Origin: Tabrizicola soli
GTDB taxonomy: Bacteria > Pseudomonadota > Alphaproteobacteria > Rhodobacterales > Rhodobacteraceae
Assembly: GCF_015999335.1 (NCBI RefSeq)
Contig: NZ_JAEACP010000011.1
Location: 1 to 64,000 of the forward strand
Length of the DNA: 64,000 nt
Direction of reading: 5' to 3'
A program made the position numbers and the translations under genes. Within the stretch, counting starts at the first letter, position 1. Each line of letters starts with the position of its first letter. This document shows, piece after piece, positions 1,769 to 62,000 of this stretch. The notes beneath the pieces are model-generated. The model was not told the origin of the DNA and made no database searches. It saw nothing but the letters and a program-made list of their open reading frames with translations.

Positions 1769-3310
1769 TCAGATGAAGGCGTCGGGCATCTCGGCCTTGC
1801 GCTGCGCGACGAAGGCTTCCAGCGCCTCGCGCTTGCCCTCGTCCAGCGCCGGGGGCTGGTAGTCGCCGAGCTGCTTCTTGACCCTCTCGGCCGCAAGCGC
1901 CTGCGTGTCGCGGCTGCCTTCCTCGGCCCAGGTCTCAAAGGGCTTGTAGTCCAGAAGCTCCGTCCGCCAGAAGGCCGATTTGAAGTTCGCCTGCGTGTGG
2001 CTGCAGCCAAGGTAGTGGCCGCCCGGGCCCACTTCGCGGATCGCGTCCATCGCCTGGCCGTTGGCATCCATCGTGACGCCCTGGGCGAGGTGGTGCAGCG
2101 TGCCGAGCTGGTCGGCGTCCATCACGAATTTCTCGTAGGACGAGACCAGCCCGCCCTCCAGCCAGCCGCAGGCGTGCAGCATGAAGTTCACGCCCGCCAG
2201 GAGCGCCATGTTCAGGCTGTTCGAGGTCTCGTAGGCCGCCTGCGCATCCGGCAGCTTGGAGCCGCAGAACGATCCGCCCGAACGGTAGGGCAGCCCCAGT
2301 CGCCGCGCCAGCTGCCCCGCGCCATAGGTGATATGCGCGGCTTCCGGCGTGCCGAAGGTGGGCGCGCCCGAGTTCATGTCGATCGAGGTCACGAAGGCGC
2401 CGAAGATCACCGGCGCGCCGGGACGCACGAGCTGGCTGTAGGCCACGCCCGCCAGCACCTCGGCCAGGACCTGGGTCAGCGTGCCCGCGACCGTTACCGG
2501 CGCCATCGCGCCGCCGACGATGAAGGGCGAGATGATCGCGGCCTGGTTCGCGCGGGCATAGACCTCGAGCGCGCCCATCATGATGCCGTCGAAGGTGAGC
2601 GGCGAGTTGATGTTGATCAGGCTGGTCATCACCGTGTTCCGGTCGACGAAATCGTCGCCGAACAGGATCTTCGACATGGCGACCGAATCCGCTGCCCGGC
2701 TCGGCTCGGTGACCGAACCCATGTAGGGCTTGTCGCTCAGCGTCATGTGCGCCATCAGCATGTCGAGGTGGCGCTTGTTCACCGGCACGTCGGTCGGCTC
2801 GCAGACGGTGCCGCCGGAATGGTGCAGCCATTTCGACATGTAGCCGAGCTTCACGAAGTTCCGGAAATCCTCCAGCGTCGCATAGCGGCGGCCGCCTTCG
2901 GCATCGCGCACGAAGGGCGGGCCATAGACCGGGGCGAGGACGAGGTTGCGCCCGCCGATCTCGACATTGCGCTCGGGGTTGCGGGCGTGCTGGGTGAAGC
3001 TGCGCGGCGCGGTGGCGCAAAGCTTGCGGGCCAGGCCGCGCGGGATATGCACCCGCTCGCCCTTCACATCGGCCCCGGCCTGGCGCCAGCGTTCCAGCGC
3101 CTCGGGGTTCTCGACGAAGTTGACGCCGATCTCTTCCAGCACGGTCTCGGCGTTGTGCTCGATGATCTGCAGCGCCTCCTCGTTCAGGATCTCGAAATCC
3201 GGGATGTTGCGCTGGATGAAACGCGCGGTCTCGAAGCTGACCGCCGTCCGCTCCGCCCGGCGGCTGGCGCCCCCACCACTGCGCGCCCTGCGTCCTGCAA
3301 CTTCGTTCAT
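1769..3310 (-). CDS. MttB-family (trimethylamine methyltransferase-like) protein
   Basis: A 513-residue cytoplasmic protein of the MttB superfamily (COG5598). In the methanogen enzymes a methyl group moves from a quaternary or tertiary amine to a corrinoid protein. Here the reading frame has no in-frame amber codon, so it belongs to the non-pyrrolysine branch, members of which include glycine betaine methyltransferases. Recognisable stretches include GGTVCEPTDVPVNKRHLDML and the C-terminal GPGGHYLGCSHTQANF. ATG 3310 has GGAGG seven bases upstream. No corrinoid protein or reactivase gene lies nearby, so the substrate cannot be named. Family assignment is firm; the reaction is not. Confidence 0.85.
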   Translation of the reverse strand: MNEVAGRRARSGGGASRRAERTAVSFETARFIQRNIPDFEILNEEALQIIEHNAETVLEEIGVNFVENPEALERWRQAGADVKGERVHIPRGLARKLCATAPRSFTQHARNPERNVEIGGRNLVLAPVYGPPFVRDAEGGRRYATLEDFRNFVKLGYMSKWLHHSGGTVCEPTDVPVNKRHLDMLMAHMTLSDKPYMGSVTEPSRAADSVAMSKILFGDDFVDRNTVMTSLININSPLTFDGIMMGALEVYARANQAAIISPFIVGGAMAPVTVAGTLTQVLAEVLAGVAYSQLVRPGAPVIFGAFVTSIDMNSGAPTFGTPEAAHITYGAGQLARRLGLPYRSGGSFCGSKLPDAQAAYETSNSLNMALLAGVNFMLHACGWLEGGLVSSYEKFVMDADQLGTLHHLAQGVTMDANGQAMDAIREVGPGGHYLGCSHTQANFKSAFWRTELLDYKPFETWAEEGSRDTQALAAERVKKQLGDYQPPALDEGKREALEAFVAQRKAEMPDAFI

Positions 3311-3543
3311 GTCGGCCTCCGATGTGCTTTGTCGCCCTTATGCCGCCAAACGCGCCGGGCCCGCTTATCGAAACCGGCCATTGTTCTCCAAAACCGACAT
3401 TGCTTGCGGCCGATTGCGACAGCTTCCAAGTTGCCGGACGGCGACACCCCGGGGCCGATGCCGGTCCGGTACCGTCAAGGCACTGGCCGAAACCGGAATC
3501 CTTTGACAGACTGCCCCGCGATTTAAGCAGAGGGAGTTTACAG

Positions 3544-4182
3544 GTGAAATACGCAATGACTGCGATGGCGATGCTGCTCGCCTCTCCCCTGTCCGCCCAG
3601 GACTGGTCGGGCCAATGGGGTGGCTTCGCCCTGGGCTATGGCGCCGGAAGCTACGAGCAGGGCGACTTCGAGGCCGACGAGACCGGCGAGGACGTGGATG
3701 TCGACGGCTTTCTCGTGGGGCTGCATTACGAACGGAACTTCCAGCGCGGCAATCATGTTCTGGGGTTCGATGTCGGTCTGTCGAAGGGGGTCCGGGGGAC
3801 TTCGCCGCAGGAACCTGGCCCGGTCTGGTGGGCTTGCGAACTGGGCGAGTGCTTCGTCAACGTCGAGGCTCTGCTCACTCTGCGGGGTAGGTATGGCTGG
3901 CTGATGACACCCGAGACGATGATTTACGGTGCAGGAGGACTTGCGGCAGGAAAGGTCGAAGGCGGGATCTACAACTTCACCCAGAATTCGTCCACCGCCG
4001 TCGGCTATACGATCGGTGCCGGGCTTGCGCATATGATCCAGCCGAACCTGATGCTTTATGCCGAGGTCAACCATGTCGATCTGGGCACTCTTGAACTCGG
4101 CCCGCTTGGCACGCCCGACGACACCCTGGACGGCAGGGGCGACTTCTCCACCGTCCTGATCGGGGTGAACTTCCGCTTCTGA
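3544..4182 (+). CDS. outer-membrane beta-barrel protein
   Basis: A 212-residue protein with a signal peptide ending near LASPLSAQ followed by [16 protein letters not shown]. It has alternating aromatic/glycine strands and a C-terminal phenylalanine (VLIGVNFRF), typical of small eight-stranded barrels of the OmpA/opacity type inserted by BAM. The start is GTG 3544 (GGGAG about nine bases upstream, immediately preceding KYAMTAMAM); ATG 3556 would shorten the signal peptide. TTGACA at 3503-3508 may be a -35. It is divergent from the MttB-family gene. The specific role is unknown. Confidence 0.75.
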
Positions 4183-4259
4183 CCCCTGCGCCCGCCTCGG
4201 GCGCCGTATCCGCACTTTGCAGGCCTTGCGATTCCGGCTGCCATCGCTTACGCGGGCGC

Positions 4260-5834
4260 ATGACCCAGGCACATGACCGTCTTCTGATCATCGACTTCGG
4301 TTCCCAGGTGACGCAGCTGATCGCGCGCCGCCTGCGCGAGCTGAACGTCTATTGCGAAATCCACCCCTTCAACCGCGTGGACGAGGCCTTCCTCAAAGCC
4401 TTCGCCCCGAAGGCCGTGATCTTCTCGGGCGGACCGGCCTCGGTCTATCAGGAGAACGCGCCGATGCCGCCGAAGGGCGTGTTCGATCTGGGCGTGCCGA
4501 TCCTGGGGATCTGCTACGGCCAGCAGGTGATGATGCATTGCCTGGGCGGCCATGTCGAAGGCGGCCACGGCACCGCCGAATTCGGCCGGGCCTTCGTGAC
4601 CCCCACCGAGCTGACCCATCCGGTCCTCGCCGGCTGGTTCCCGCCCGAGGACGGCCCCCAGGCGCGCGAGCAGGTCTGGATGAGCCATGGCGACCACGTC
4701 TCGAAACTGGCCCCCGGCTTCCAGGTCCTCGGCACCTCGCCAAACGCGCCCTTCGCGATCACCGCCGATCCGGCGCGCCACTTCTACGCCGTGCAATTCC
4801 ACCCCGAGGTGCACCACACCCCGAAGGGCGGCCGGCTCTACGAGAATTTCGTCAAGCTCGCCGGGTTCAAGGGCGACTGGACCATGGGCGCCTACCGCGA
4901 GGAGGCGATCCGCAAGATCCGCGAGCAGGTGGGCGACCAGAAGGTGATCTGCGGCCTGTCCGGCGGGGTGGACAGCTCGGTCGCGGCGGTGCTGATCCAC
5001 GAGGCGATCGGCGACCAGCTCACTTGCGTCTTCGTCGACCACGGCCTCTTGCGCCTGGGCGAGGCGGAACAGGTGGTGACCATGTTCCGCGACCACTACC
5101 ACATGCCCTTGATCCATGCCGACGAGTCGGATCTGTTCCTGACTGCGCTGGAGGGCGTCAGTGACCCCGAGGTCAAGCGCAAGACCATCGGCAAGCTTTT
5201 CATCGACGTGTTCCAGAAGCACGCAGCCGAGGTCGGCGGCGCCACCTTCCTGGCACAGGGCACGCTCTACCCCGACGTGATCGAAAGCGTCAGCTTCTCC
5301 GGCGGCCCCTCGGTCACGATCAAGAGCCATCACAACGTCGGCGGCCTGCCGGAAAAGATGGGCCTCAAGCTCGTCGAACCCCTGCGCGAGCTCTTCAAGG
5401 ACGAGGTCCGCGCCCTGGGACGCGAACTGGGCCTGCCCCCCGGCTTCATCGGCCGCCACCCCTTCCCCGGCCCCGGCCTCGCGATCCGCTGCCCCGGCGA
5501 GATCACCCGGGAAAAGCTGGACATCCTGCGCCAGGCCGATGCGGTCTACATCGACCAGATCCGCAAGCACGGGCTCTATGACGAGATCTGGCAGGCCTTC
5601 GCCGCGATCCTGCCGATGCGCACCGTGGGCGTGATGGGCGACGGGCGGACCTACGACTATGCGCTTGCGCTGCGCGCGGTGACCAGCGTGGACGGCATGA
5701 CCGCCGACTATTATCCTTTCACCCACGATTTCCTGGGCGAGACCGCGACGCGGATCATCAACGAGGTCAAGGGCGTGAACCGCGTCTTCTACGACTGCAC
5801 CTCGAAGCCGCCGGGCACCATCGAACTGGAATGA
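4260..5834 (+). CDS. guaA: GMP synthase (glutamine-hydrolysing)
   Basis: A 524-residue enzyme that aminates XMP to GMP using glutamine and ATP, the last step of guanine nucleotide synthesis in the cytoplasm. The N-terminal class I amidotransferase has the nucleophile motif GICYGQQ (about residue 85) and the His/Glu pair in FHPEVHHT. The ATP-pyrophosphatase has the P-loop SGGVDSSV (about 232). The C-terminal dimer domain ends with the canonical KPPGTIELE motif. Length and end match the family. No strong Shine-Dalgarno precedes ATG 4260. It is convergent with a CopD-like gene across a palindromic repeat. Confidence 0.98.
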
Positions 5835-49371: not shown

Positions 49372-50856
49372 ATGACCCATATCCTCTCCATCGACCAGGG
49401 CACCACCTCCTCCCGCGCGATCCTGTTCGACGAAGGCCTCCGCCCCGTCGCGCAGGCCCAGGAAGAATTCCCGCAACACTACCCCCGCCCCGGCTGGGTC
49501 GAGCACGATCCCTCGGATCTCTGGGCGACCGTCGCCGGCACCGCCCGCGCCGCGATCGAGAAGGCCGGCGTCGCCGCCACCGACATCGTCGCCATCGGCA
49601 TCACCAACCAGCGCGAGACCACCCTGATCTGGGACCGCGCCACCGGCGAGCCGATCCACCGCGCAATCGTCTGGCAGGACCGCCGCACCGCCGACGGCTG
49701 CGCCGCCCTGAAGGCCGCCGGCCACGAGCCGATGATCACCGCCCGCACCGGCCTCCTGCTCGACCCCTATTTCTCGGGCAGCAAGATCAAGTGGCTGCTC
49801 GACACCATCCCCGGCGCGCGCGACCGGGCCCGGCGCGGCGAGCTCGCCTTCGGCACCGTCGACAGCTTCCTGATCTGGAAGCTCACCGGCGGCCGGGTCC
49901 ATGCCACCGACGCCACCAACGCCGCCCGCACGCTGATCTTCAACATCGCCACCGGCGAGTGGGACGCCGAGATCTGCGCACTCCTCGACATCCCGATGGC
50001 GATCCTGCCCGAGGTCCGCGACTGCGCCGCCTTCTTCGGCACCACCCGGGCCGACCTTTTCGGCCGCGAGATCCCGATCCTCGGCGTCGCGGGCGACCAG
50101 CAGGCCGCGACCGTCGGCCAGGCCTGCTTCTCGCCCGGCATGATGAAATCGACCTACGGCACCGGCTGCTTCGCGCTCCTCAACACCGGGGCGGACCGGG
50201 TGCCCTCGCAGAACCGGCTTCTGACCACCATCGCCTACCGGCTGGAAGGGCGGACCACCTATGCGCTCGAGGGTTCGATCTTCATCGCGGGGGCCGTTGT
50301 CCAGTGGCTGCGCGACGGGCTGAAGATCATCCGCGAGGCGGGGGAGACGCAGGCGCTGGCCAGCGCCGCCGACCCCGCGCAGGAGGTGGTGCTGGTCCCC
50401 GCCTTCACCGGCCTTGGCGCGCCCTACTGGCGGCCGGACTGCCGGGGCGCGGTCTACGGGCTGACCCGCAACTCGGGCCAGGCCGAACTGGCGCGCGCCG
50501 CGCTGGAGAGCGTCGGCTACCAGACCCGCGACCTTCTGGAGGCGATGCGCGCGGACTGGGGCGGGGCCGCGGGCGGCGTCCTGCGGGTCGACGGCGGGAT
50601 GACGGCCTCGGACTGGACGATGCAGTTTCTCGCCGACATCCTGGGCGCGCCGGTGGACCGCCCGGTGGTGACCGAGACGACGGCGCTCGGCGCGGCCTAT
50701 CTGGCGGGGCTGAAGGCGGGGATCTGCCCCGACCCGACCGCATTCCAGCAGTCCTGGGCGCTGGAGCGCCGCTTCTCGCCAAAGATGGACGCGGAGACCC
50801 GCGACCGCAGATACGCCCGCTGGGGACGCGCGGTCACCGCGACGATGAGCGTTTGA
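49372..50856 (+). CDS. glpK: glycerol kinase
   Basis: A 494-residue FGGY kinase converting glycerol to glycerol-3-phosphate. N-terminal phosphate loop [16 protein letters not shown], substrate arginine/glutamate region [14 protein letters not shown], and the C-terminal ATP site [18 protein letters not shown]. Length is close to E. coli GlpK (502). It completes the uptake and phosphorylation branch before glpD. The 216-base gap from glpV holds hairpins and a palindrome and may carry an internal promoter. It overlaps the next gene by four bases. Confidence 0.97.
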
Positions 50857-51992
50857 CCCCCTTCGCCATCGCCGCCCCCGGCCGCATCCTCTTTGGCCGG
50901 GGCGAGGCCGCGCGGGCGCCGGGGCTGATCCGCGCCTTCGGCGCGCGCGGGCTGGTCGTCCATGGCGCAAGCCCCGCCCGCGCCCTCTGGCTGGTCGAGG
51001 CGCTGCAGGCGGCAGGCGCCGCGACCCTGGCCCTGCCCTGCGCGCGCGAGCCCGATCTGCCGCTCCTGCTCCCGACCCTGCGGGCCGCCAGGGACTTCCG
51101 TCCCGACTGGGTCGCCGCAATCGGCGGCGGCGCGGCGCTCGACCTCGGCAAGGCGCTGGCCGCGCTGGTTCCGGCCCCCGGCGGGCCGCTGGACCATCTG
51201 GAGGTGGTGGGCCGCGCCCTGCCGCTGCGCGCCGCGCCCCTGCCCTTCATCGCGCTGCCGACCACGGCGGGCACCGGGGCCGAGGCGACGAAGAACGCGG
51301 TCATCGGCCTGCCCGACCACGGCCGCAAGGTCTCGCTGCGCGACGACCGGATGCTGGCGCGGCTGGCGATCGTGGACCCGGCCCTGACCGACCACACGCC
51401 CCGCGCCACGACGCTGGCCTCGGGCCTGGATGCGATAACCCAGGTGATCGAGCCTTTCGTCAGCCACAGGGCCACGCCCTTCACCGATGCGCTTGCCGCC
51501 CCCGCCATTGCGCAGGGGCTGGCGGCCCTGGCCCGGCTGACGCAGGCCGAGGATGCCGGCGCGCGCGAGGCAATGGCCTGGGTCAGCCTCTCGGGCGGTC
51601 TTGCCCTGGCCAATGCGGGCTTGGGTGCGGTGCACGGGCTGGCGGGGGTGATCGGCGGGCTGGCCCCTGCCCCGCATGGCGCGATCTGCGGCGCGCTTCT
51701 CGCCCCCGTCCTGCGGCTGAACCGGATCCATGCCGGGGGCGAGCCGGCGCTTCGGCTGGATCGGGTCTTCGGCCAGATCGCCGCGACGCTGGGCGGCACG
51801 CCGGCCGATGCCCCGGCGACGCTGGCGCGCTGGGCGGCCGGGGCGGGCCTGCCGGGACTGGTCGCGCAAGGGGTGGATCCCGCCCTGTTCCCCCGCATCG
51901 CCGCGTCGGCGCTGGCCTCCTCCTCGATGCAGGGCAATCCGGTGCCGCTGACCGAGGCCGAACTGATCCGGGCGCTGGAAGCCGCCGCCTGA
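50853..51992 (+). CDS. iron-type alcohol dehydrogenase
   Basis: A 379-residue group III (Fe-type) dehydrogenase. Coenzyme loop [16 protein letters not shown] (about 88-103) and [15 protein letters not shown] (about 136-150). Metal ligands expected from FucO are Asp193 (GLDAITQ), residue 197 which is Gln instead of His, His261 and His275 ([17 protein letters not shown]). A Gln at this position occurs in some family members. It starts at TTG 50853, overlapping the glpK stop, so it belongs to the glycerol operon. It may oxidise glycerol, a glycerol-derived aldehyde or a diol; specificity is not deducible. Confidence 0.82.
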
Positions 51993-51997
51993 AACCG

Positions 51998-52999
51998 TCA
52001 CCTCGCCCCGTCGCATAGCCCCGCCAGGACCTCGGCCGCGATTTCCAGCGAGCGCAGCCTCGCGCCCCGGTCGTGGATCATCCCGGTGACCATGATCTCG
52101 TCCGGCCGGTATCTGGCGATCAGCGCGGCCAGCGCGTCCCGCACCGTTGCGGCCGCGCCGGTGGCCGAGCAGGACAGGGCCTGCCGCACCTGGGCCATGA
52201 CGGGCGCGGGGATCTCCCGATCCAGATCGCGGCTCGGGCGGGGCAGCTTGCCCGCCTGCCCGGTCCGCAGCCGCGCGAAGGCCAGGAGCTGCGAGGAGCG
52301 CAGGAACTCCGCCTCGGCGTCGCTTCCGGCCGCGCAGACGCCCGCCGCGATCATCACATGGGGTTTCTCCAGCCGCTCCGAGGGCCGGAAGCCCCGGCGG
52401 TAGATCTCCAGCGCCTCGCCCAGCAGGGCCGGCGCGAAATGCGAGGCGAAGGCATAGGGCAGGCCCAGCCAGGCGGCCAGCTGCGCGCCATAGAGGCTGG
52501 AGCCGAGGATCCAGACCGGGACATTCGTGCCGGTTCCGGGGATGGCCTGCACCGGGGCGGTCCCGGCGGCGTCGCCGAGATAGCCGATCAGCTCCTGCAC
52601 GTCCTGGGGGAAACTGTCCTCGGGTGCCATGTGGCGGCGCAGCGCGCGGGCCGTCGCCATGTCGGTGCCGGGCGCGCGGCCGAGGCCGAGGTCGATCCGG
52701 CCCGGATAGAGCGTGGCCAGGGTGCCGAACTGCTCGGCAACCATCAGGGGGGAGTGGTTCGGCAGCATGATGCCGCCCGCGCCGATCCGCATCGCGCGGG
52801 TCTGGCCCGCCACATGGCCGATCAGTACCGCCGTCGCGGCGCTGGCGATGCCCGGCATGTTGTGATGCTCGGCCAGCCAGAAGCGGTGATAGCCCGAGCG
52901 TTCCGCCGCGCGGGCCAGATCCACGGTCGCCGCGAGGGCATCGGCCGCCGTATGCCCCTCGGCAATCGGGGACAGGTCGAGATAGGAATACTGCTGCAT
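51998..52999 (-). CDS. LLM-class flavin-dependent oxidoreductase
   Basis: A 333-residue luciferase-like monooxygenase of the MsnO8/YhbW type: [89 protein letters not shown]. These proteins bind FMNH2; most have unknown substrates and do not emit light. ATG 52999 follows GGAGG. It converges on the alcohol dehydrogenase with five bases between stops and is preceded by the E1-like gene. Confidence 0.9.
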
Positions 53000-53061
53000 C
53001 GCGCCCTCCGTCCGGGAGGAGCTAATCATCCCGGACGGTCGGGCCAAGGGGGGCCTGCAGA

Positions 53062-55437
53062 TCAGCCTTGCGCCGACCGGCCGGCCCCCGCCGACAGCTC
53101 CAGCACCGATTGCGCCAGGGCCCGGCGGTCCAGCCCGAAGTGCCGGTAGAGATCGCCGATGGTGCCGGTCTGGCCGAAATGCTCCACCCCGTGCGAGACG
53201 CAGCGGTGGCCGCCGACCGACCCCAGCCAGGCGAGCGTCGCCGGGTGGCCGTCGATGGCGGTGACGATCAGGCAGTCGCGCGGCAGGTCGGCGAAAAGCG
53301 TCTCGACATGGCTGCAGGCCCGGCGGTTGCCGCGGGCCCGGACGCGCTGCGCGGCGGTCCAGCCCGCGTTCAGGCGGTCGGCGGAAGTGACGGCGAGCAC
53401 CCCCACGTCGCGCCGGTGCTCGCCGATGAGACCCGCCGCGGCGATGGCCTCGGGGGCGATGGCGCCCTGGTAGGCGATCACCACCTCGCAGTTCGGGCCC
53501 GGCGGGCGCAGCCAGTAGGCGCCGTCGACGGCGCCCTGCCGGAAAGCGTCGTCCCGGCGCCTGCCCGGTTGCTCCAGCGGGTTGGTGGTCAGCCGCAGAT
53601 AGACCGAGCCGCCGGTCTCGTCGCGCAGCCAGGTGCGTTCGTCCGGGTCGCCCTCGCCGTCGCGCTGCAGGTAGTCGAAGGCCCATTCCAGGATCACCGC
53701 CAGCTCGTCGGCGAAGGCCGGTTCGAAGGCGGCAAGCCCATCCTGCGCCATGCCGGTCAGGGGCGTGCCGATGGATTGATGCGCCCCGCCCTCGGGCGCC
53801 AGCGTCACGCCCGAAGGGGTGCCCACGATGATGAAGCGCGCGTCCTGGTAGCAGGCGTAGTTCAGCGCATCGAGGCCGCGATGCACGAAGGGGTCATAGA
53901 CCGTGCCGATGGGGATCAGCCGCTTGCCGAACAGGCTGTGGCTCAGCCCCGCAGCACCCAGCAGCAGGAACAGGTTCATCTCGGCGATGCCCAGTTCGAT
54001 GTGCTGGCCTTCGGGTGCGAAGTCCCATTTCGCGGTCGAGGGGATGCGATGCTCGATGAAGGCGTCCGCCAGCGGTTTGCGCGCAAAGAGTTTGCGCCGG
54101 TTCACCCAGGGGCCGAGGTTCGTGGTGCCGGTCACATCGGGCGAGGTGGTGACGATCCGCGCCGCCAAGGCACTGTCGCCCCTGGCCAGATCGTCCAGGA
54201 TCCTGCCGAAGGCGGCCTGGGTCGAGATCTCGCGCTCGGTGTCGATTCCGATCCGCGGCACGGCGAGCCTGTCGTCGCGATACCGCCGCCGCCCCTTGAG
54301 GAAGAAGGGAACCCTTGCCAGAAAGCCCTTCAGCGCCTGCGCGTCGCCCACACCCGCGAAGGGCTCCCATTCCTGCCCCTCGGCCACCCCCATATGCGCC
54401 TGCCAGGCGGCGAACTGGGTCGGGTTCATCAGCCCGCCGTGGTTGTCCTTGTGCCCGGCGATCGGCGTGCCCCAGCCCTTGATCGTATAGGCCAGAAAGC
54501 AGGTCGGCCGGTCGTGATCCACGGCGGCGAAGGCATCCGCCATGGTCTCGACGCAGTTGCCGCCCAGGTTCTCCATCAGCGCGGCCAGTTCGGCGTCGCT
54601 GCGCCGGTCGATCAAGGCCGAAACCTCGCCCTGGTCGCCGAGATCCTCCATCAGCCGCTTGCGCCAGACCGCCCCGCCCATGAAGGTCAGCGCGGCATAG
54701 TGCTGGTTCGGGCAGGCGTCGATCCAGTCGCGCAAGGCGCCGCCGCCCGGCTCGGCGAAGGCCGCCCGTTGCAGGGCGCCGTATTTCACCCGCACCACAT
54801 CCCAGCCGAAGGCCTCGAAGATCTTCTCGACGCGGGCGAACAGCCCCTCGCGCACGATCCCGTCCAGCGACTGGCGGTTGTAGTCGATGATCCACCAGCA
54901 ATTGCGCAGGTCGTTCTTCCAGCCCTCCTGCAGGGCCTCGTAGACATTGCCCTCGTCCAGCTCGGCGTCGCCCACCAGCGCGACCATGCGCCCCGGCGGC
55001 AGATCGCGGCCCCAGGCCTTGGCCGCGATGTAGTCCTGCACCAGAGAGGCGAAGGTGGTGATCGCCACGCCCAGCCCCACCGAGCCGGTGGAGAAATCCA
55101 CGTCATCCACGTCCTTGGTCCGGCTGGGATAGCTTTGCACCCCGCCGAAGCCGCGAAAATCCTCCATCTTCCCGCGGCTCAGGTTGCCCATCAGATACTG
55201 GATGGCATGGAACACCGGCGCGGCATGCGGCTTCACCGCCACCCGGTCCTCGGGCCGCAACGCCTGGAAATAGAGCGCGGTCAGGATCGACACCATCGAG
55301 GCGGAGGACGCCTGATGCCCGCCGATCTTGATCGCGTCCACCTTGGGGCGGACGTGGTTGGCATGGTGGATCATCCAGTGCGACAGCCACAGAAGCCGCT
55401 GCTCGATGGTCTTCAGATGCTGCACGTCTCGGGTCAT
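53062..55437 (-). CDS. AceE/transketolase-like thiamine-diphosphate E1, MdeB-like
   Basis: A 791-residue homodimeric-type E1. The thiamine-diphosphate motif is [21 protein letters not shown] followed by [11 protein letters not shown], as in AceE GDGEMDE...[20 protein letters not shown] matches the substrate-channel start. It lacks the first 60-80 residues of E. coli AceE, the region that contacts the E2 core. With an upstream methionine gamma-lyase it resembles mdeB of Pseudomonas putida, whose product acts on 2-oxobutyrate. Its role here, converting 2-oxobutyrate toward propionyl-CoA, is inference. ATG 55437 has GAGGAG upstream. Confidence 0.82.
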
Positions 55438-55452
55438 CGGCGGCTCCTCTGG

Positions 55453-55587
55453 TCAGGCGGCAGAGACGATCCCGCCCGCATGGGCGACCGGGTTCAGGTG
55501 GTTCAGCCTATCGCGGATCGCGGGGAAACCAACCGGCGCATCGCGACCGGCCCCGGACGCCTGCGCGGAAGCCGGCGTCACGCTCAT
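55453..55587 (-). CDS. possible 44-residue leader ORF between mdeA and E1 gene
   Basis: ATG 55587 overlaps the mdeA stop (ATGA). The frame runs 44 codons (MSVTPASAQASGAGRDAP...) to TGA at 55455-55453. Five in-frame codons later the E1 gene starts at 55437, so both are in one frame. It could be a coupled small protein, a leader aiding E1 translation, or an N-terminal part separated by a recent stop. No similarity to the AceE N terminus was recognised. Confidence 0.35.
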   Translation of the reverse strand: MSVTPASAQASGAGRDAPVGFPAIRDRLNHLNPVAHAGGIVSAA

Positions 55588-56780
55588 TCCGCATTGTGGG
55601 CGGCCAGGGCCTGCATCAGGTCGTCCAGGATGTCCTCCACCCCCTCCAGCCCGACCGAGAGGCGCACCAGCCCCTCGGCGATGCCATGGGCGGCGCGTTC
55701 CTCGGGGGTATAGGTGGAATGGGTCATGGACGCCGGATGCTGGATCAGGCTTTCCGCATCGCCCAGGCTGACCGCCCGCTGGACCAGCGCCAGGCGGTTC
55801 ATCATCGCGATTCCCCCCGCCTTGCCGCCCACCACCTCGAACGGGATCATGCCCCCGAAAGCCGCCATCTGCCGCCGCGCCAGATCGGCTTGCGGGAAGG
55901 AATCCAGCCCCGGATAATGCACGCATTTCACCGCCGGATGCGCCTCGAGCGCGCGGGCTATGGTCAGGGCGGCGGCGGAATGGGCCCGGACCCGCAGGTC
56001 CAGCGTCTTGATCCCGCGCAAGAGCAGCATGGCCGAGAGGGGGGACATCACCGCCCCGGTCATGTCCTTGATGCCGACCAGCCGGATGGCCTGGATATCC
56101 TCGGCCCGGCCCGCGACCAGCCCCGCGATCACATCGCCATGGCCGCTGAGGTATTTGGTCGCCGAATGGACCACGATATCCGCGCCATGCTCGACGGGCC
56201 GGGTCAGGACGGGCGTGGCATAGGTGTTGTCCACCACCACCCTTGCGCCGTGCCGGTGGGCGATCCCGGCAATGGCGGCGATGTCCACCAGCCGGTTGTT
56301 GGGGTTGGCGGGCGTCTCGAAATAGACGATCCGGGTCCTGGGGCCGATCGTGGCCGCCAGATTGGCCGGATCGGACAGGTCCACCGGCCGCACCGTGACG
56401 CCGAAGCGCGGCAGGCCATGGGTCAGGAAGGCGAAGGTGCAGCCGTACAGCGTCTTGTCCAGGATCACCTCGTCGCCCGCCCGAAGGAAGGTCCAGAGCG
56501 TCGCGGTGATCGCCCCCATGCCCGAGGCGGCGCAAAGCCCGGCCTCGGCCCCTTCCAGATTGGCGATGCGCCGTTCCAGGGCCTCCAGCGTCGGGTTCGA
56601 GATCCGGCTGTAGAAATGGCCCTCGGCCGCGCCCGCGAACATCGCGCCGCCGGCCTCGGCCGTATCGAAGGTGAAGGTCGAGGACAGGTAGACCGGCGGG
56701 TTCAGCGCGCCCTGATGCTCGCGGGGGTCATAGCCATGGTGAATGGCGCGGGTGGCAAGGCTGGGCTGTGTATCGCGCAT
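55584..56780 (-). CDS. mdeA: methionine gamma-lyase
   Basis: A 398-residue PLP enzyme, the same length as the P. putida lyase, splitting methionine into methanethiol, ammonia and 2-oxobutyrate. YSRISNPTLEALERRIANLE binds PLP phosphate. LDKTLYGCTFAFL holds Cys114, the equivalent of Cys116 that marks methionine gamma-lyases among the Cys/Met PLP family. The Schiff-base lysine is Lys209 in HSATKYLSGHGDV. ATG 56780 has AAGGA upstream. It is divergent from an Lrp-type regulator and upstream of an E1-like gene, matching the mdeRAB arrangement. Confidence 0.88.
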   Translation of the reverse strand: MRDTQPSLATRAIHHGYDPREHQGALNPPVYLSSTFTFDTAEAGGAMFAGAAEGHFYSRISNPTLEALERRIANLEGAEAGLCAASGMGAITATLWTFLRAGDEVILDKTLYGCTFAFLTHGLPRFGVTVRPVDLSDPANLAATIGPRTRIVYFETPANPNNRLVDIAAIAGIAHRHGARVVVDNTYATPVLTRPVEHGADIVVHSATKYLSGHGDVIAGLVAGRAEDIQAIRLVGIKDMTGAVMSPLSAMLLLRGIKTLDLRVRAHSAAALTIARALEAHPAVKCVHYPGLDSFPQADLARRQMAAFGGMIPFEVVGGKAGGIAMMNRLALVQRAVSLGDAESLIQHPASMTHSTYTPEERAAHGIAEGLVRLSVGLEGVEDILDDLMQALAAHNAE

Positions 56781-56823
56781 CGGGCTGTCCTTCTGGCTGC
56801 CCACCAGACTGCGCCTGTTCCCG

Positions 56824-56848
56824 TGGCATTTGGTTGCCAATCATGCCA
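56824..56848. promoter_or_regulatory. candidate Lrp-type operator between mdeA and mdeR
   Basis: TGGCAT (56824-56829) and ATGCCA (56843-56848) form an outer inverted repeat around TGGTTGCCA; a second palindrome GCATTTAATGC is at 56868-56878. Repeated TGGCA/TGCCA halves in a divergent gap are expected for an Lrp/AsnC regulator. Confidence 0.5.
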
Positions 56849-56891
56849 GAAAGGAAGCCAGGATCAGCATTTAATGCCAAGGCAGGCCAGG

Positions 56892-57350
56892 ATGGACGAA
56901 AAAGACCGCCAGATCATCCGCGCCCTGCAAAGGAACGGCCGCGCCACGAATCTGGAGATCGCGGCCGAGGTGAACCTTTCGCCCTCGCCCTGCCTGCGCC
57001 GGATCCGGCTGCTGGAGGAAGCGGGCGCGATCCTCGGCTACCGGGCCATTGCCGACCAGGGCGCCTATGGTCTGCCGGTCACGGTCTTCATCCGCATCCG
57101 GCTGGAGCGGCACAGCGACGAGGTGGTGAAGCATTTCGAAAGCCGCATCCGTGCGCTGGACGAGGTGCTGGACTGTCACTTGCTGACCGGCGCGGCGGAC
57201 TATCATCTTCGCGTCGTGGTCGCCGGGCTGGAGGCCTATGAAAGCTTCATCCGCAACCGGATCCATCCGATCGGCGGCATCGCCTCGATCGAATCGAGTT
57301 TCGTCTACGGCACGGTCAAGAACACCGGGGTTTTCCCGCGGGTCGGGTGA
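56892..57350 (+). CDS. mdeR: Lrp/AsnC-type regulator of methionine degradation
   Basis: A 152-residue regulator: winged helix MDEKDRQIIRALQRNGRATNLEIAAEVNLSPSPCLRRIRLLEEAG (1-46), hinge IADQGAYGLPVTVFIRIRLERHS, and the RAM ligand domain (VLDCHLLTGAADYHLRVVV, about 95-113). Divergent from mdeA, and like MdeR of P. putida it is of the Lrp family. Methionine or 2-oxobutyrate as effector is inference. ATG 56892 follows AGGCCAGG; ATG 56874 (MPRQAR) is possible. Confidence 0.85.
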   Translation: MDEKDRQIIRALQRNGRATNLEIAAEVNLSPSPCLRRIRLLEEAGAILGYRAIADQGAYGLPVTVFIRIRLERHSDEVVKHFESRIRALDEVLDCHLLTGAADYHLRVVVAGLEAYESFIRNRIHPIGGIASIESSFVYGTVKNTGVFPRVG

Positions 57351-57420
57351 AACCGGGGCAAAGATGCTGTCCCTGCCCCATGACCTTCGCTAGACTGTCC
57401 CGGCTGGAGGGGGGGAAGCC

Positions 57421-58713
57421 ATGGAATTCATCGCAAGAGCAACCGCCGTCGTCGGCGGCACGGTTGCCTTCCTGCGGCGCATGCGGTCGCCCGCGCATCA
57501 GGCCTTCGGCGCCGATCCCGCCATTCCCCAGGCGCGCAGCCAGGGGATCATGACCCTGAAGGTGCCCGTCGCCGAAGGCTGGAAGGACGGCCGCCTGCCG
57601 GTCTGCGCGCCCGGTCTGGCGGTCAATGCCTTCGCCTCGGGCCTGGACCACCCACGCTGGATCGAGGTGCTGCCGAACGGCGACGTGCTCGTCGCGGAAT
57701 CGAAGGAGCAGCCCGGACCGCCGAAGACGCTGATGGACCACGCCGCGCAGGCGACGATGCGTCGGGTCAAGGCGATCGGGAAAAGCGCGAACCGCGTCAC
57801 CCTGTGGCGGGACGCCGATGGCGACGGCGCGGCGGAGATCCGCGAGGTCTTCGTCGGGAACCAGAACCAGCCGTTCGGCATGGCCCTGGTGGGAAGCCGG
57901 TTCTACCTGGGCAATACCGACGGCATCAAGGTCTTCGACTACAGCCCGGGCGACACCGCGCTGTCGGGCGACGGGCAAAAACTGGTGGAGTTCAAGCCGC
58001 ATGGCCACTGGACGCGCAGCCTGATCGCCTCGCCCGACGGTTCGAAGATCTACGCCGGCGTCGGCTCGCTGTCGAATATCGGCGATCAGGGCATGGCGGC
58101 CGAGGAGGGCCGCGCCGCGATCTGGGAGCTGGACCTGGCGACCGGCCGGTCCCGCATCTTCGCCTCGGGCCTGCGCAATGCCGTCGGCATGGCCTGGGAG
58201 CCGGAGACCGGCCAGCTCTGGACCGTCGTCAACGAGCGTGACGGCCTCGGCGACGAAACCCCGCCCGACTATCTCACCTCGGTGCGCGACGGCGGCTTCT
58301 ACGGCTGGCCCTATTGCTATTGGGGCAAGACGGTGGACGACCGGGTGCCGCAGGATCCGGCGCTGGTCGCGCGCGCGATCACGCCGGATTACGCCCTTGG
58401 CGGCCATACGGCGTCGCTCGGCCTGTGCTGGATGCCCGACGGCACCCTGCCCGGCTTCGGCCCCGGCATGGTGATCGGCCAGCATGGATCCTGGAACCGC
58501 TCCAGGCTGAGCGGCTACCGGCTGATCTTCGTGCCCTTCGAGAACGGGGCGCCCAGCGGCCCGGCGCGGGACATCCTTACCGGCTTCCTGTCCGAGGACG
58601 AGAAGCTGGCCTACGGGCGGCCCGTCGGGGTGGCCCTGGGGCCTGACGGAAGGTCCCTCCTGATGGCGGATGACGTCGGCGACATCATCTGGCGCGTCTC
58701 GGCGGCCGGCTAG
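57421..58713 (+). CDS. PQQ-type sorbosone/sugar dehydrogenase-like protein
   Basis: A 430-residue protein with the six-bladed propeller of soluble glucose/sorbosone dehydrogenases: FASGLDHPRWIEVLPNGDVLVAES (about 73-95), HGHWTRSLIASPDGSKIYAGVGSLSNIGD, ASGLRNAVGMAWEPETGQLWTVVNERD, VIGQHGSWNRS. These enzymes use pyrroloquinoline quinone in the periplasm. The N terminus has a short hydrophobic segment (ATAVVGGTVAFLRR) that may be a poor signal or anchor. GGAGGGGG precedes ATG 57421. No PQQ-synthesis genes are in view; substrate unknown. Confidence 0.82.
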   Translation: MEFIARATAVVGGTVAFLRRMRSPAHQAFGADPAIPQARSQGIMTLKVPVAEGWKDGRLPVCAPGLAVNAFASGLDHPRWIEVLPNGDVLVAESKEQPGPPKTLMDHAAQATMRRVKAIGKSANRVTLWRDADGDGAAEIREVFVGNQNQPFGMALVGSRFYLGNTDGIKVFDYSPGDTALSGDGQKLVEFKPHGHWTRSLIASPDGSKIYAGVGSLSNIGDQGMAAEEGRAAIWELDLATGRSRIFASGLRNAVGMAWEPETGQLWTVVNERDGLGDETPPDYLTSVRDGGFYGWPYCYWGKTVDDRVPQDPALVARAITPDYALGGHTASLGLCWMPDGTLPGFGPGMVIGQHGSWNRSRLSGYRLIFVPFENGAPSGPARDILTGFLSEDEKLAYGRPVGVALGPDGRSLLMADDVGDIIWRVSAAG

Positions 58714-58752
58714 AGCGGTCCGCCGGCCGGCCCGGCCGTTTCCGGCTCGGCT

Positions 58753-59004
58753 TCACATGAGGCGCCGCGCCGCGCCAAGGGCCGTCAGCGTCACCCGGGT
58801 CGCGCCGCCATGCATGGCGATCCCAGTCACTTCCATCGGGCAGCGGTCGAGATCGCCGCCCAGGACCTCGATCGTGCCCGCGCCATGGAACGCGCTGTCG
58901 AGGAGCGACAGAAGCGCCTCGCCATGCAGGACCGCCTCGACGCCCTCGCGGGTGCGGGTGATGACGTCGGGGGTGACGTGGCGGCTGCCGATGATCAGGT
59001 CCAT
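58753..59004 (-). CDS. small hypothetical protein downstream of nrdJ
   Basis: An 83-residue soluble protein, MDLIIGSRHVTPDVITRTREGVE..., with predicted beta strands and an alanine/arginine-rich end. ATG 59004 has AGGAAG upstream; an ATG at 59082 would place residues inside the hairpin after nrdJ. It follows nrdJ on the same strand at an 82-base gap holding a stem-loop. Not recognised. It converges with the PQQ-type gene. Confidence 0.5.
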   Translation of the reverse strand: MDLIIGSRHVTPDVITRTREGVEAVLHGEALLSLLDSAFHGAGTIEVLGGDLDRCPMEVTGIAMHGGATRVTLTALGAARRLM

Positions 59005-59050
59005 GGGTCTGCTTCCTTTGCGGCCGCCTGCGGCCGCTCCGACAGGGGAG

Positions 59051-59075
59051 CACGGGCCCGCGCATGGGGCCCGTG
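59051..59075 (-). terminator. stem-loop after nrdJ
   Basis: CACGGGCCC (59051-59059) pairs with GGGCCCGTG (59067-59075) over seven bases. It lacks a U-run, so it may stabilise the nrdJ 3' end rather than terminate. Confidence 0.5.
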
Positions 59076-59086
59076 ACGGCATTTCG

Positions 59087-62000
59087 TCAGCTGCAGCCGG
59101 TGGTCGAGCCGCAGGTCAGGCACTTGTTGCAGGTGCCGTTGCGGACCAGCGTATAGTTGCCGCATTCGACGCAGGAATCGCCGGTATAGCCCTGCAGCTT
59201 CGCCTTGGCCCTGGCCTGGGCATCACTGCTCGCCGCGCCGATCGCGAAGGTGCTGGTGGTCTCGGAGAAGCCCGAGACGCGGGTCTCGGTCATCATCGCC
59301 GCCAGCGGGGCCGCGGCCTCGGTGCCGGTGGCGAGGCCGCCGCCGAAAGCGGTGGCCGCGGCCCCGCCCTGCAGCACGGTGAACTCCTGCGGCAGGCGCT
59401 TGCGCAGGTATCCGGTCGAGGAGATCTGCTTCAGCACCTCCAGCGATTTCGACGCCGCCGTCTCGCTGACTTCCGAGATGTTGCGCTTGCCCTCCTCGTC
59501 GCCCCGGCCGAGGTCGTCGAAGCTCGCCCCTTTCGGCGCGACATGCGCCAGGTCGGTGCGGTCGAGGTAGCTGATCGCGAGCTCCCGGAAGATATAGTCC
59601 AGGATCGAGGTCGCGTTCTTCACCGAGTCGTTGCCCTGGACCATGCCGGCGGGCTCGAACCGGGTGAAGGTGAAGGCCTCGACGAATTCCTCCAGCGGCA
59701 CGCCGTATTGCAGGCCGACCGAGACCGCGATGGCGAAGTTGTTCATCATCGCCCGGAAGCCCGCGCCTTCCTTGTGCATGTCGATGAAGATCTCGCCCAG
59801 CGAGCCGTCCTGATACTCGCCGGTGCGCAGATAGACCTTGTGCCCGCCGATCAGCGCCTTCTGGGTATAGCCCTTGCGGCGCTCCGGCAGCTTCTCGCGG
59901 TGCGAGCGGACGATCTCCTTGACGATCACCTTCTCGACGATCTTCTCGGCGATGACCTGGGCCTTCTCCATGGCCGAGCCGGAGGCGAGGATTTCCTCGG
60001 CCTCGTCGTCATCCTCGATCAGCGCGGCCGCCAGCGGCTGCGACAGCTTCGACCCGTCGCGGTAAAGCGCGTTGGCCTTGATGCCGAGCGAGTGGGAAAG
60101 CTCATAGGCCGCCAGCGTTTCCGCGATGGTGGCGTTGTTCGGCATGTTGATCGTCTTCGAGATCGCGCCGGAGATGAAGGACTGGGCGGCGGCCATCATG
60201 GTGATGTGGCTTTCCACCGAGAGGAACCGCTTGCCGGTCTTGCCGCAGGGGTTGGCGCAGTCGAAGACCCGGTAATGCTCGGGCTTGAGGTGCGGCGCGC
60301 CTTCGAGGGTCATCGTGCCGCAGACATGGTCGTTGGCCGCGTCGATCTGGGCCTTGGTGAAGCCGAGGTGGCGCAGGAGGTCGAAGGTCGGATCGGCCAG
60401 CTTCTCGTTCGGGATTCCGAGGGTGCCCTTGCAGAAATCCTCGCCCAGTGTCCACTGGTTGAAGACGAAGCGGATGTCGAAGGCCGAGGGCAGCGCCGCC
60501 TCGATCTTCTCGATCTCGCGCGGGCCGAAGCCGTGGCCGATCAACGCGGTGTGGTTGATCGCCGGGGCCTGGCCAAGCGAGCCATGGCCGACGGCGTAAG
60601 CCACGATCTCGGCGGCCTGGCTGGTGGAATAGCCGAGGGCTTCGAGGGCGGCCGGGACCGACTGGTTGATGATCTTGAAATAGCCGCCGCCGGCGAGCTT
60701 CTTGAACTTCACCAGCGCGAAATCGGGCTCGATCCCGGTGGTGTCGCAGTCCATCACCAGGCCGATGGTGCCGGTGGGCGCGATCACCGTGGTCTGGGCG
60801 TTGCGGAAGCCGTGCTGCTGGCCCAGGGCCAGCGCCTCGTCCCAGGCGGATTTCGCAAGGCTGACGAGGGTCTGGTCCGGGCAGTTCGCATGGTCCAGCG
60901 CGACGGCCGGGACGTTCAGCCCCTCGTAGACCCCGGTCGCATGGGCGGCGGCGCGGTGGTTGCGGATCACGCGCAGCATGTGCTCGCGGTTGCGCCCGTA
61001 GCCCGAGAACGGGCCCAGCTCCCGCGCCATCTCGGCCGAGGTGGCATAGGAGATGCCGGTCATGATCGCGGTCAGCGCGCCGCAAAGCGCGCGGCCCTCG
61101 GCGCTGTCATAGCCGAGGCCCATGTTCATCAGAAGGCCGCCGATATTGGCGTAGCCCAGGCCCAGCGTGCGGAAATCATAAGAAAGCTGGGCAATCTCCT
61201 GGCTGGGGAACTGCGCCATCATCACCGAGATTTCCAGCGTGACGGTCCAGAGCCGGGTCGCATGGACATAGCCCTCGGCGTCGAAGCGGCCGTCATGGAA
61301 GAAGGTCAAGAGGTTCATCGACGCCAGGTTGCAGGCGGTGTCGTCGAGGAACATGTATTCCGAGCAGGGGTTCGACCCCCGGATCGGCCCGTCCTCGGGG
61401 CAGGTGTGCCAGGCGTTCACCGTGTCGTGGAACTGGATGCCGGGATCGGCGCAGGCCCAGGCGGCATGGCCGATCTGGTCCCAGAGCTCGCGCGCCGAGA
61501 CGGTCTTGGCGACCTTGCCGTCGGTGCGGCGGACCAGCTCCCAGGGCTGGTCGTTCTTCACCGCCTTGAGGAAGGCGTCGGTCACGCGGACCGAGTTGTT
61601 CGAATTCTGGCCCGAGACCGAGATATAGGCCTCCGAGTCCCAGTCGGTGTCATAGGTCGGGAATTCGATGCTGTCGAAGCCCTGCCGCGCGTATTGCAGC
61701 ACGCGGTTGGTATAGGTGTCCGGGATCATCGCCTTCTTGGCGCCCTTGATCGCGGCCTTCAGCGCCGGGTTCTTCGCCGGGTCGACCGCATCCTCGGTGC
61801 TGCCGTCCCATTGCCGGATCGCGGCGAAGATCTCGTTCAGCCGCGCCTCGTGCATCTTGGACCCGGCGACAAGGGAGGCGACCTTCTGCTCCTCGATCAC
61901 CTTCCAGTTGATGAACTGCTCGATATCGGGGTGATCCATGTCGCAGATCACCATCTTGGCCGCGCGCCGGGTGGTGCCGCCCGACTTGATCGCGCCAGCC

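Follow-up and report, generated by a model that had tools for sequence, protein, structure and literature searches.

Pseudogenes and gene remnants are well known in bacterial operons, and the proteins of the OsmC/Ohr family (PF02566) are characterized by catalytic cysteines. Here we examine a 44-codon ORF of Tabrizicola soli that lies, within a 64,000-nucleotide stretch of DNA (the window), between mdeA and a gene for an E1-type dehydrogenase (E1). The closest comparisons are six intact OsmC/Ohr genes (loci L035, L038, L089, L096, L097, and L131), which occupy the same operon position, have DNA and the peptide blocks APVGFP-I and LNPVA--G-IV in common with the window ORF, and stop just before the E1 ribosome-binding site, as the window ORF does. 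Measured against these genes, the window ORF is without the 5' part that harbors the Cys region, 26 inner codons, and three near-terminal codons, and returns no domain match. We conclude that it very probably represents what is left of the 3' end of an OsmC-family gene formerly located between mdeA and E1, now in decay. Stepwise loss through deletions, and relaxed constraint, are traits that this remnant has in common with bacterial pseudogenes in operons; nothing that would be unusual for them was found in the window, whose ORF is an ordinary decaying gene remnant and well explained.

Organization of the mdeA–E1 interval

Direct reading of the minus strand confirmed the anatomy reported in the preliminary description (Table 1). 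The ORF (55587-55453) encodes the peptide MSVTPASAQASGAGRDAPVGFPAIRDRLNHLNPVAHAGGIVSAA. Its ATG (55587-55585) overlaps the mdeA stop TGA (55586-55584), giving ATGA at 55587-55584, and after its terminal TGA (55455-55453), five more codons (55452-55438) lead, still in the same frame, to the E1 ATG at 55437. No promoter- or terminator-like site was seen in 55350-55700, and Rfam returned nothing at gathering score across 50000-60000.

Table 1. Features of the mdeA–E1 interval in the window (positions of the whole 64,000-nt stretch)
Feature	Position	Strand	Basis or remark
mdeA, methionine gamma-lyase	55584..56840	-	NF005695, 688 bits, cut-off 666
44-codon ORF, very probable osmC remnant, ATGA start to native osmC stop TGA	55453..55587	-	reading and alignment
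First 11 codons, aligning with osmC DNA out of osmC frame	55555..55587	-	alignment
18 codons GAGRDAPVGFPAIRDRLN, osmC frame	55501..55554	-	match GIGSNAPVGFPEIRYTIH of intact OsmC (L038) and GIGSNAPVGFPEICDRLH of L041
Approximate site where 78 nt (26 codons) of intact osmC are deleted in frame	55498..55501	-	alignment
osmC C-terminus LNPVAHAGGIV-SAA*, with a further 3-codon (9-nt) deletion	55453..55497	-	alignment
E1 ribosome-binding region CCAGAGGAGCCGCCG, 3' of osmC stop	55438..55452	-	reading and comparison
E1-type dehydrogenase gene	53062..55437	-	start at 55437; 791-aa PDH-E1/transketolase-type protein

The ORF is flanked by two genes of methionine breakdown. Although mdeA is listed from a TTG at 56840, the likelier start is the ATG at 56780. 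Its product ends in HNAE*, two residues short of the HNAEAA* found in all six relatives for which the end was located (L033, L035, L036, L038, L041, and L131; L097 was missed by the search pattern), and the mdeA stop of the window sits in DNA that can be aligned with osmC (CATCGAGCTTGACGCC of L041 versus GAATGAGCGTGACGCC). The E1 protein, whose gene we take to be mdeB, scores 170.7 bits against the aceE model, far under the cut-off of 859.9, and it thus seems to represent a distinct E1 group that is often linked with methionine gamma-lyase; a literature search for mdeB together with methionine gamma-lyase found nothing. A gene for an Lrp/AsnC-type regulator (56883-57350, plus strand) diverges from mdeA, which we would guess it regulates, and a luciferase-like monooxygenase gene (51998-53014, minus strand) adjoins E1 downstream.

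Intact operons and their distribution

To place the interval in context, we searched 61 genomes with E1 as query and read the sequence upstream of the matches. In a member of the same genus whose E1 is 90% identical (G003, locus L003), the gene directly before E1 encodes a 183-aa OsmC-domain protein (PF02566, 69.6 bits, cut-off 27.5) ending in ...GSNAPVGFPEIR...LSPVALRGEIVSTRSDV, with its TGA 18 nt from the E1 ATG; it occupies the same place as the window ORF, at a nearly equal distance from E1. A close E1 is found in 11 of the 32 genomes of the genus, that of the window included, and no osmC lies upstream of E1 in the nine others (one copy each; the second copy of G007, L032, was left out). 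At L009, L012, and L015, from members of the genus or family, E1 has no mdeA match within at most 1.5 kb on each side.

We then compiled a census of 91 rows comprising the best 80 of at least 537 E1 loci from species genomes, L004-L011, L131, L134, and the window; L003 (the same place as L035), L012-L019, and L032 were left out. Among these rows, the order mdeA–second PLP gene–osmC–E1 occurs at the six intact loci named above, and an osmC tail alone occurs in two (the window and L041). In 33 rows mdeA directly precedes E1, in 15 it is separated from E1 by some other gap, and in 35 no mdeA above 60% identity was seen in the stretch examined, the length of which differs from row to row. Outside the census, L132 carries mdeA, the second PLP gene, and osmC with an E1 of only 25% identity, and L133 carries the second PLP gene and osmC with neither mdeA nor E1 found; L135 is cut by a contig end, L137 has mdeA with E1 not found, and L138 and L139 have a more distant osmC alone. 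The arrangement is uncommon in the family, since among 394 genomes, one per genus, eight contain a close mdeA (E 1e-190) and seven a close osmC (E 1e-25), and no further close mdeA was detected in the genera of G288 (five genomes) and G067 (four genomes). Plasmids of Sulfitobacter and Leisingera carry methionine gamma-lyase beside an E1-type gene among the matches listed (20 of 434 records).

Two loci have a different gene in the interval. L033 harbors a DMSP demethylase-like gene (2542-3657; NF009133, 363.7 bits, below the cut-off of 410) between mdeA and E1, and L036 a similar one by eye (about 3743-4858); in both, it occupies the spot taken elsewhere by the second PLP gene and osmC.

Similarity of the window ORF to osmC

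The similarity of the ORF to osmC was evaluated by DNA alignment with cheap gap extension, using 500 dinucleotide-preserving shuffles per locus. The resulting z values are 8.8 (L038), 8.5 (L041), 6.0 (L035), 5.9 (L097), 5.5 (L131), 3.2 (L089), and 2.1 (L096); the real score tops every shuffle for the first five of these, and some shuffles outscore the real sequence for L089 and L096. In the same test, the two loci with a different gene in the gap gave z values of 0.1 (L033) and 1.6 (L036). A second test with 200 base shuffles returned 6.7-9.5 for the window versus -1.2 to 4.2 at seven other mdeA–E1 gaps of 60-400 nt, the highest control being the osmC-free, 69-nt gap of L086 (z 4.2).

The alignment is uneven along the ORF. 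Its first 11 codons align with osmC only loosely, and small deletions of about 4 and 1 nt (placement uncertain) bring the ORF into the osmC frame after codon 11, such that the two frames coincide from GAGRDAPVGFP onward. Comparison with the intact operons identifies the TGA at 55455-55453 as the native osmC stop.

At the protein level, the 44-aa peptide gave no Pfam match at E up to 10, hence none to OsmC/Ohr (PF02566) above the curated cut-off, and no NCBIfam match. Against a profile of ten OsmC proteins, it scored 2.3 bits, under the best of 20,000 shuffles (7.3 bits); a weak score is expected because the 26-codon deletion would split a match, and it is still a miss. In a single BLASTP comparison with the OsmC of L003, the peptide matched over 18 residues at E=1e-5. 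It contains no Cys, and the GLGACMM/GLGSCMM region of its relatives is absent.

Estimates of constraint, all from small counts, are graded in the same direction. Over the same 32 codons, pN/pS is 0.09-0.18 for intact pairs among L035, L038, and L131, 0.22-0.27 for L041 versus these three, and 0.43-0.52 for the window versus these three; the window gives 0.32 versus L041 and 0.73 versus the more distant L097, compared with which the intact genes give 0.32-0.33 over 83 codons. This order fits what a progressive release from constraint would produce. As a gene remnant should, the ORF combines osmC similarity at the same operon place (weak versus L089 and L096) with coding loss and relaxed constraint.

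A truncated osmC in Gemmobacter megaterium

A living relative harbors a less eroded form of the same structure. In Gemmobacter megaterium DSM 26375 (L041, also G288), mdeA is joined to osmC residues 73-157, followed by E1; the second PLP gene is missing there, as is the 5' part of osmC. The truncated osmC (4696-4983 of L041) starts with a GTG on the mdeA stop and runs uninterrupted for 95 codons as far as the native osmC stop. L041 and the window are alike in the join of mdeA to an osmC tail, in the absence of the second PLP gene, and in the 4-nt overlap of start codon and mdeA stop; they differ in that L041 keeps 83 osmC codons without a gap, from GIQL to the stop, whereas about 32 osmC codons are alignable in the window, and in the end of mdeA (HNAEAA* in L041 versus HNAE* in the window).

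Because the block GCGATAGG and the SAA* end are common to both tails, unlike the six intact genes, the two may derive from one first truncation. In a quick E1 tree (midpoint root), the window falls in a group of 21 rows (support 98). Besides the window, those linked to mdeA are the intact L035, L038, and L131, the L041 tail, and L033 and L036 with another gap gene; for the remaining 14, no mdeA was seen in the stretch examined. Within this group, the window and L041 belong to one 10-row group (support 82); there, the window pairs with L033 (support 88) and L041 with five mdeA-less rows (support 99). Since the two E1 sequences are not nearest neighbors, transfer or separate truncation events are also possible on these data.

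Proposed route of decay

These comparisons suggest an ancestral operon in the order mdeA–second PLP gene of Cys/Met metabolism–osmC–E1. A deletion would have taken the PLP gene together with the 5' part of osmC, fusing the last codons of mdeA to osmC DNA, which would have supplied the present mdeA stop; later deletions of 26 and 3 codons would then have shortened the osmC tail. Judged from the relatives, the TGA is that of osmC itself, and its in-frame relation to E1 is a coincidence. Any peptide made from the tail would be without the Cys-bearing half and should be devoid of OsmC activity; after ending mdeA, ribosomes may start anew at the ATGA and pass on to E1.

The last of these steps leads to a further reading, compatible with a remnant, in which the osmC scrap remains open for the link that its translation provides between mdeA and E1. 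Having finished mdeA, ribosomes would restart at the ATGA, traverse the scrap, and terminate 15 nt short of the E1 start; after the decay of osmC, selection would have kept a short ORF on the mdeA stop for the sake of coupling, the peptide itself being useless. We consider such a putative bridge unlikely, and give the same low standing to selection for it. In both the window (ATGA) and L041 (GTGA), the tail begins with a start codon in 4-nt overlap with the mdeA stop, and no stop interrupts it before that of osmC; the two larger deletions (78 and 9 nt) also preserve the frame. Tight spacing is also usual, since mdeA upstream of E1 on one strand is separated from it by less than 60 nt at 32 of 56 loci, 30 of them with gaps of 9-27 nt, in a set that includes the best 80 of at least 537 loci. 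In one study of two model species, neighboring genes were most often spaced by a 4-nt overlap (PMC10666635). However, the same study reports that reinitiation drops steeply with distance, a 14-nt gap in native gene pairs already cutting it by 40-80% (PMC10666635), and E1 has its own ribosome-binding site. Moreover, open frames are cheap at 72% GC, the pattern was spotted post hoc in two tails that perhaps have shared ancestry, and at six other loci with gaps of 114-167 nt, the longest gap ORF starts on the mdeA stop in none (offsets 5-35 nt). Of the "coupled leader" in the preliminary description, the overlap of the start with the upstream stop stands; the leader itself survives only as a possible by-product of a decayed gene.

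That the osmC tail has evolved into a functional small protein is considerably less probable. The open frame, the coupled start, the in-frame deletions, and a pN/pS still below 1 would all suit such a protein, but the period preceding decay would be expected to leave such a value, and constraint is weaker than in intact osmC. The 44-aa form is found in none of the ten other genomes of the genus with a close E1 (one E1 copy each read; the species of the window is represented by one strain). As a conserved product, the hidden small protein suggested earlier finds no support. An osmC protein search at E 1e-5 missed the remnant of the window itself and so cannot settle this reading.

Still less credible is a chance ORF in GC-rich intergenic DNA with no kinship to any gene. 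The gap is 72% GC, and the openness of the ORF is not above chance: stop codons are absent from 60% of 20,000 44-codon reads drawn at random from the window, on either strand and in any frame with true coding frames among them, and from 49% of 20,000 base-shuffled versions of the ORF; the 44-aa peptide also has no family match. Against this stands DNA resembling osmC at the same operon position, with z values of 5.5-8.8 versus L035, L038, L041, L097, and L131.

Finally, the two ORFs in one frame, five codons apart, had pointed to an E1 extended at its N-terminus, with the extension either interrupted by a nonsense change or produced by read-through of the TGA. This reading can be practically dismissed: the stop is that of osmC itself in the six intact operons, its distance from the E1 ATG and its frame vary, the ribosome-binding site comes after it, and the upstream sequence looks unrelated by eye in osmC-free members of the genus that have E1. 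From the osmC stop to the E1 ATG there are 15 nt in the window, 17 in L041, 18 in L035 and L038, 21 in L089, 24 in L096, 25 in L131, and 47 in L097, and the stop is in frame with the ATG in five of these eight loci (the window, L041, and the six intact ones); among them, neither a conserved extension nor a fixed frame with E1 was found over this range of 15-47 nt. This variation in distance and frame makes the relation of ORF to E1 coincidental. Comparison of the gap in relatives, which the preliminary description had proposed, largely yielded what it had named as evidence against an extension, i.e., unrelated, frame-shifted, or absent sequence. The sequence GGAGCCGCCGATG, in the E1 ribosome-binding region 3' of the osmC stop, is common to the window, L033, L035, L038, L041, and L131, and L036 differs from it by one base. 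Selenocysteine insertion or read-through at the TGA was likewise rejected, as the codon stands where intact osmC ends; an intact neighbor OsmC scores 65.4 bits against the model for OsmC-related (seleno)proteins (NF041052), below its cut-off of 95.

Apparent loss of osmC from the operon

With the ORF read as a decayed osmC, the lineage of the window appears to have lost its operon osmC, because no close copy was detected elsewhere in its own genome at E 1e-5. The genome has three other OsmC-domain genes, and its matches to the second PLP gene show 33-44% identity, with mdeA itself as the best match. In the intact operons, the genes for methionine gamma-lyase, a second PLP enzyme, and the E1-type dehydrogenase accompany that for the OsmC-like protein, which by inference may handle thiols or peroxides. 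Of loose relevance, osmC is reported to be upregulated alongside bhmT under sulfur limitation in Pelagibacter (PMC5069961).

The comparison answers whether E1 has a hidden extension and supports 55437 as its start. It also shows that deletion has removed osmC and the second PLP gene from the mdeA–E1 operon of this lineage, a living relative displaying an intermediate stage. If the putative bridge were true, it would illustrate how a gene can drop out of the middle of an operon while its neighbors stay coupled.
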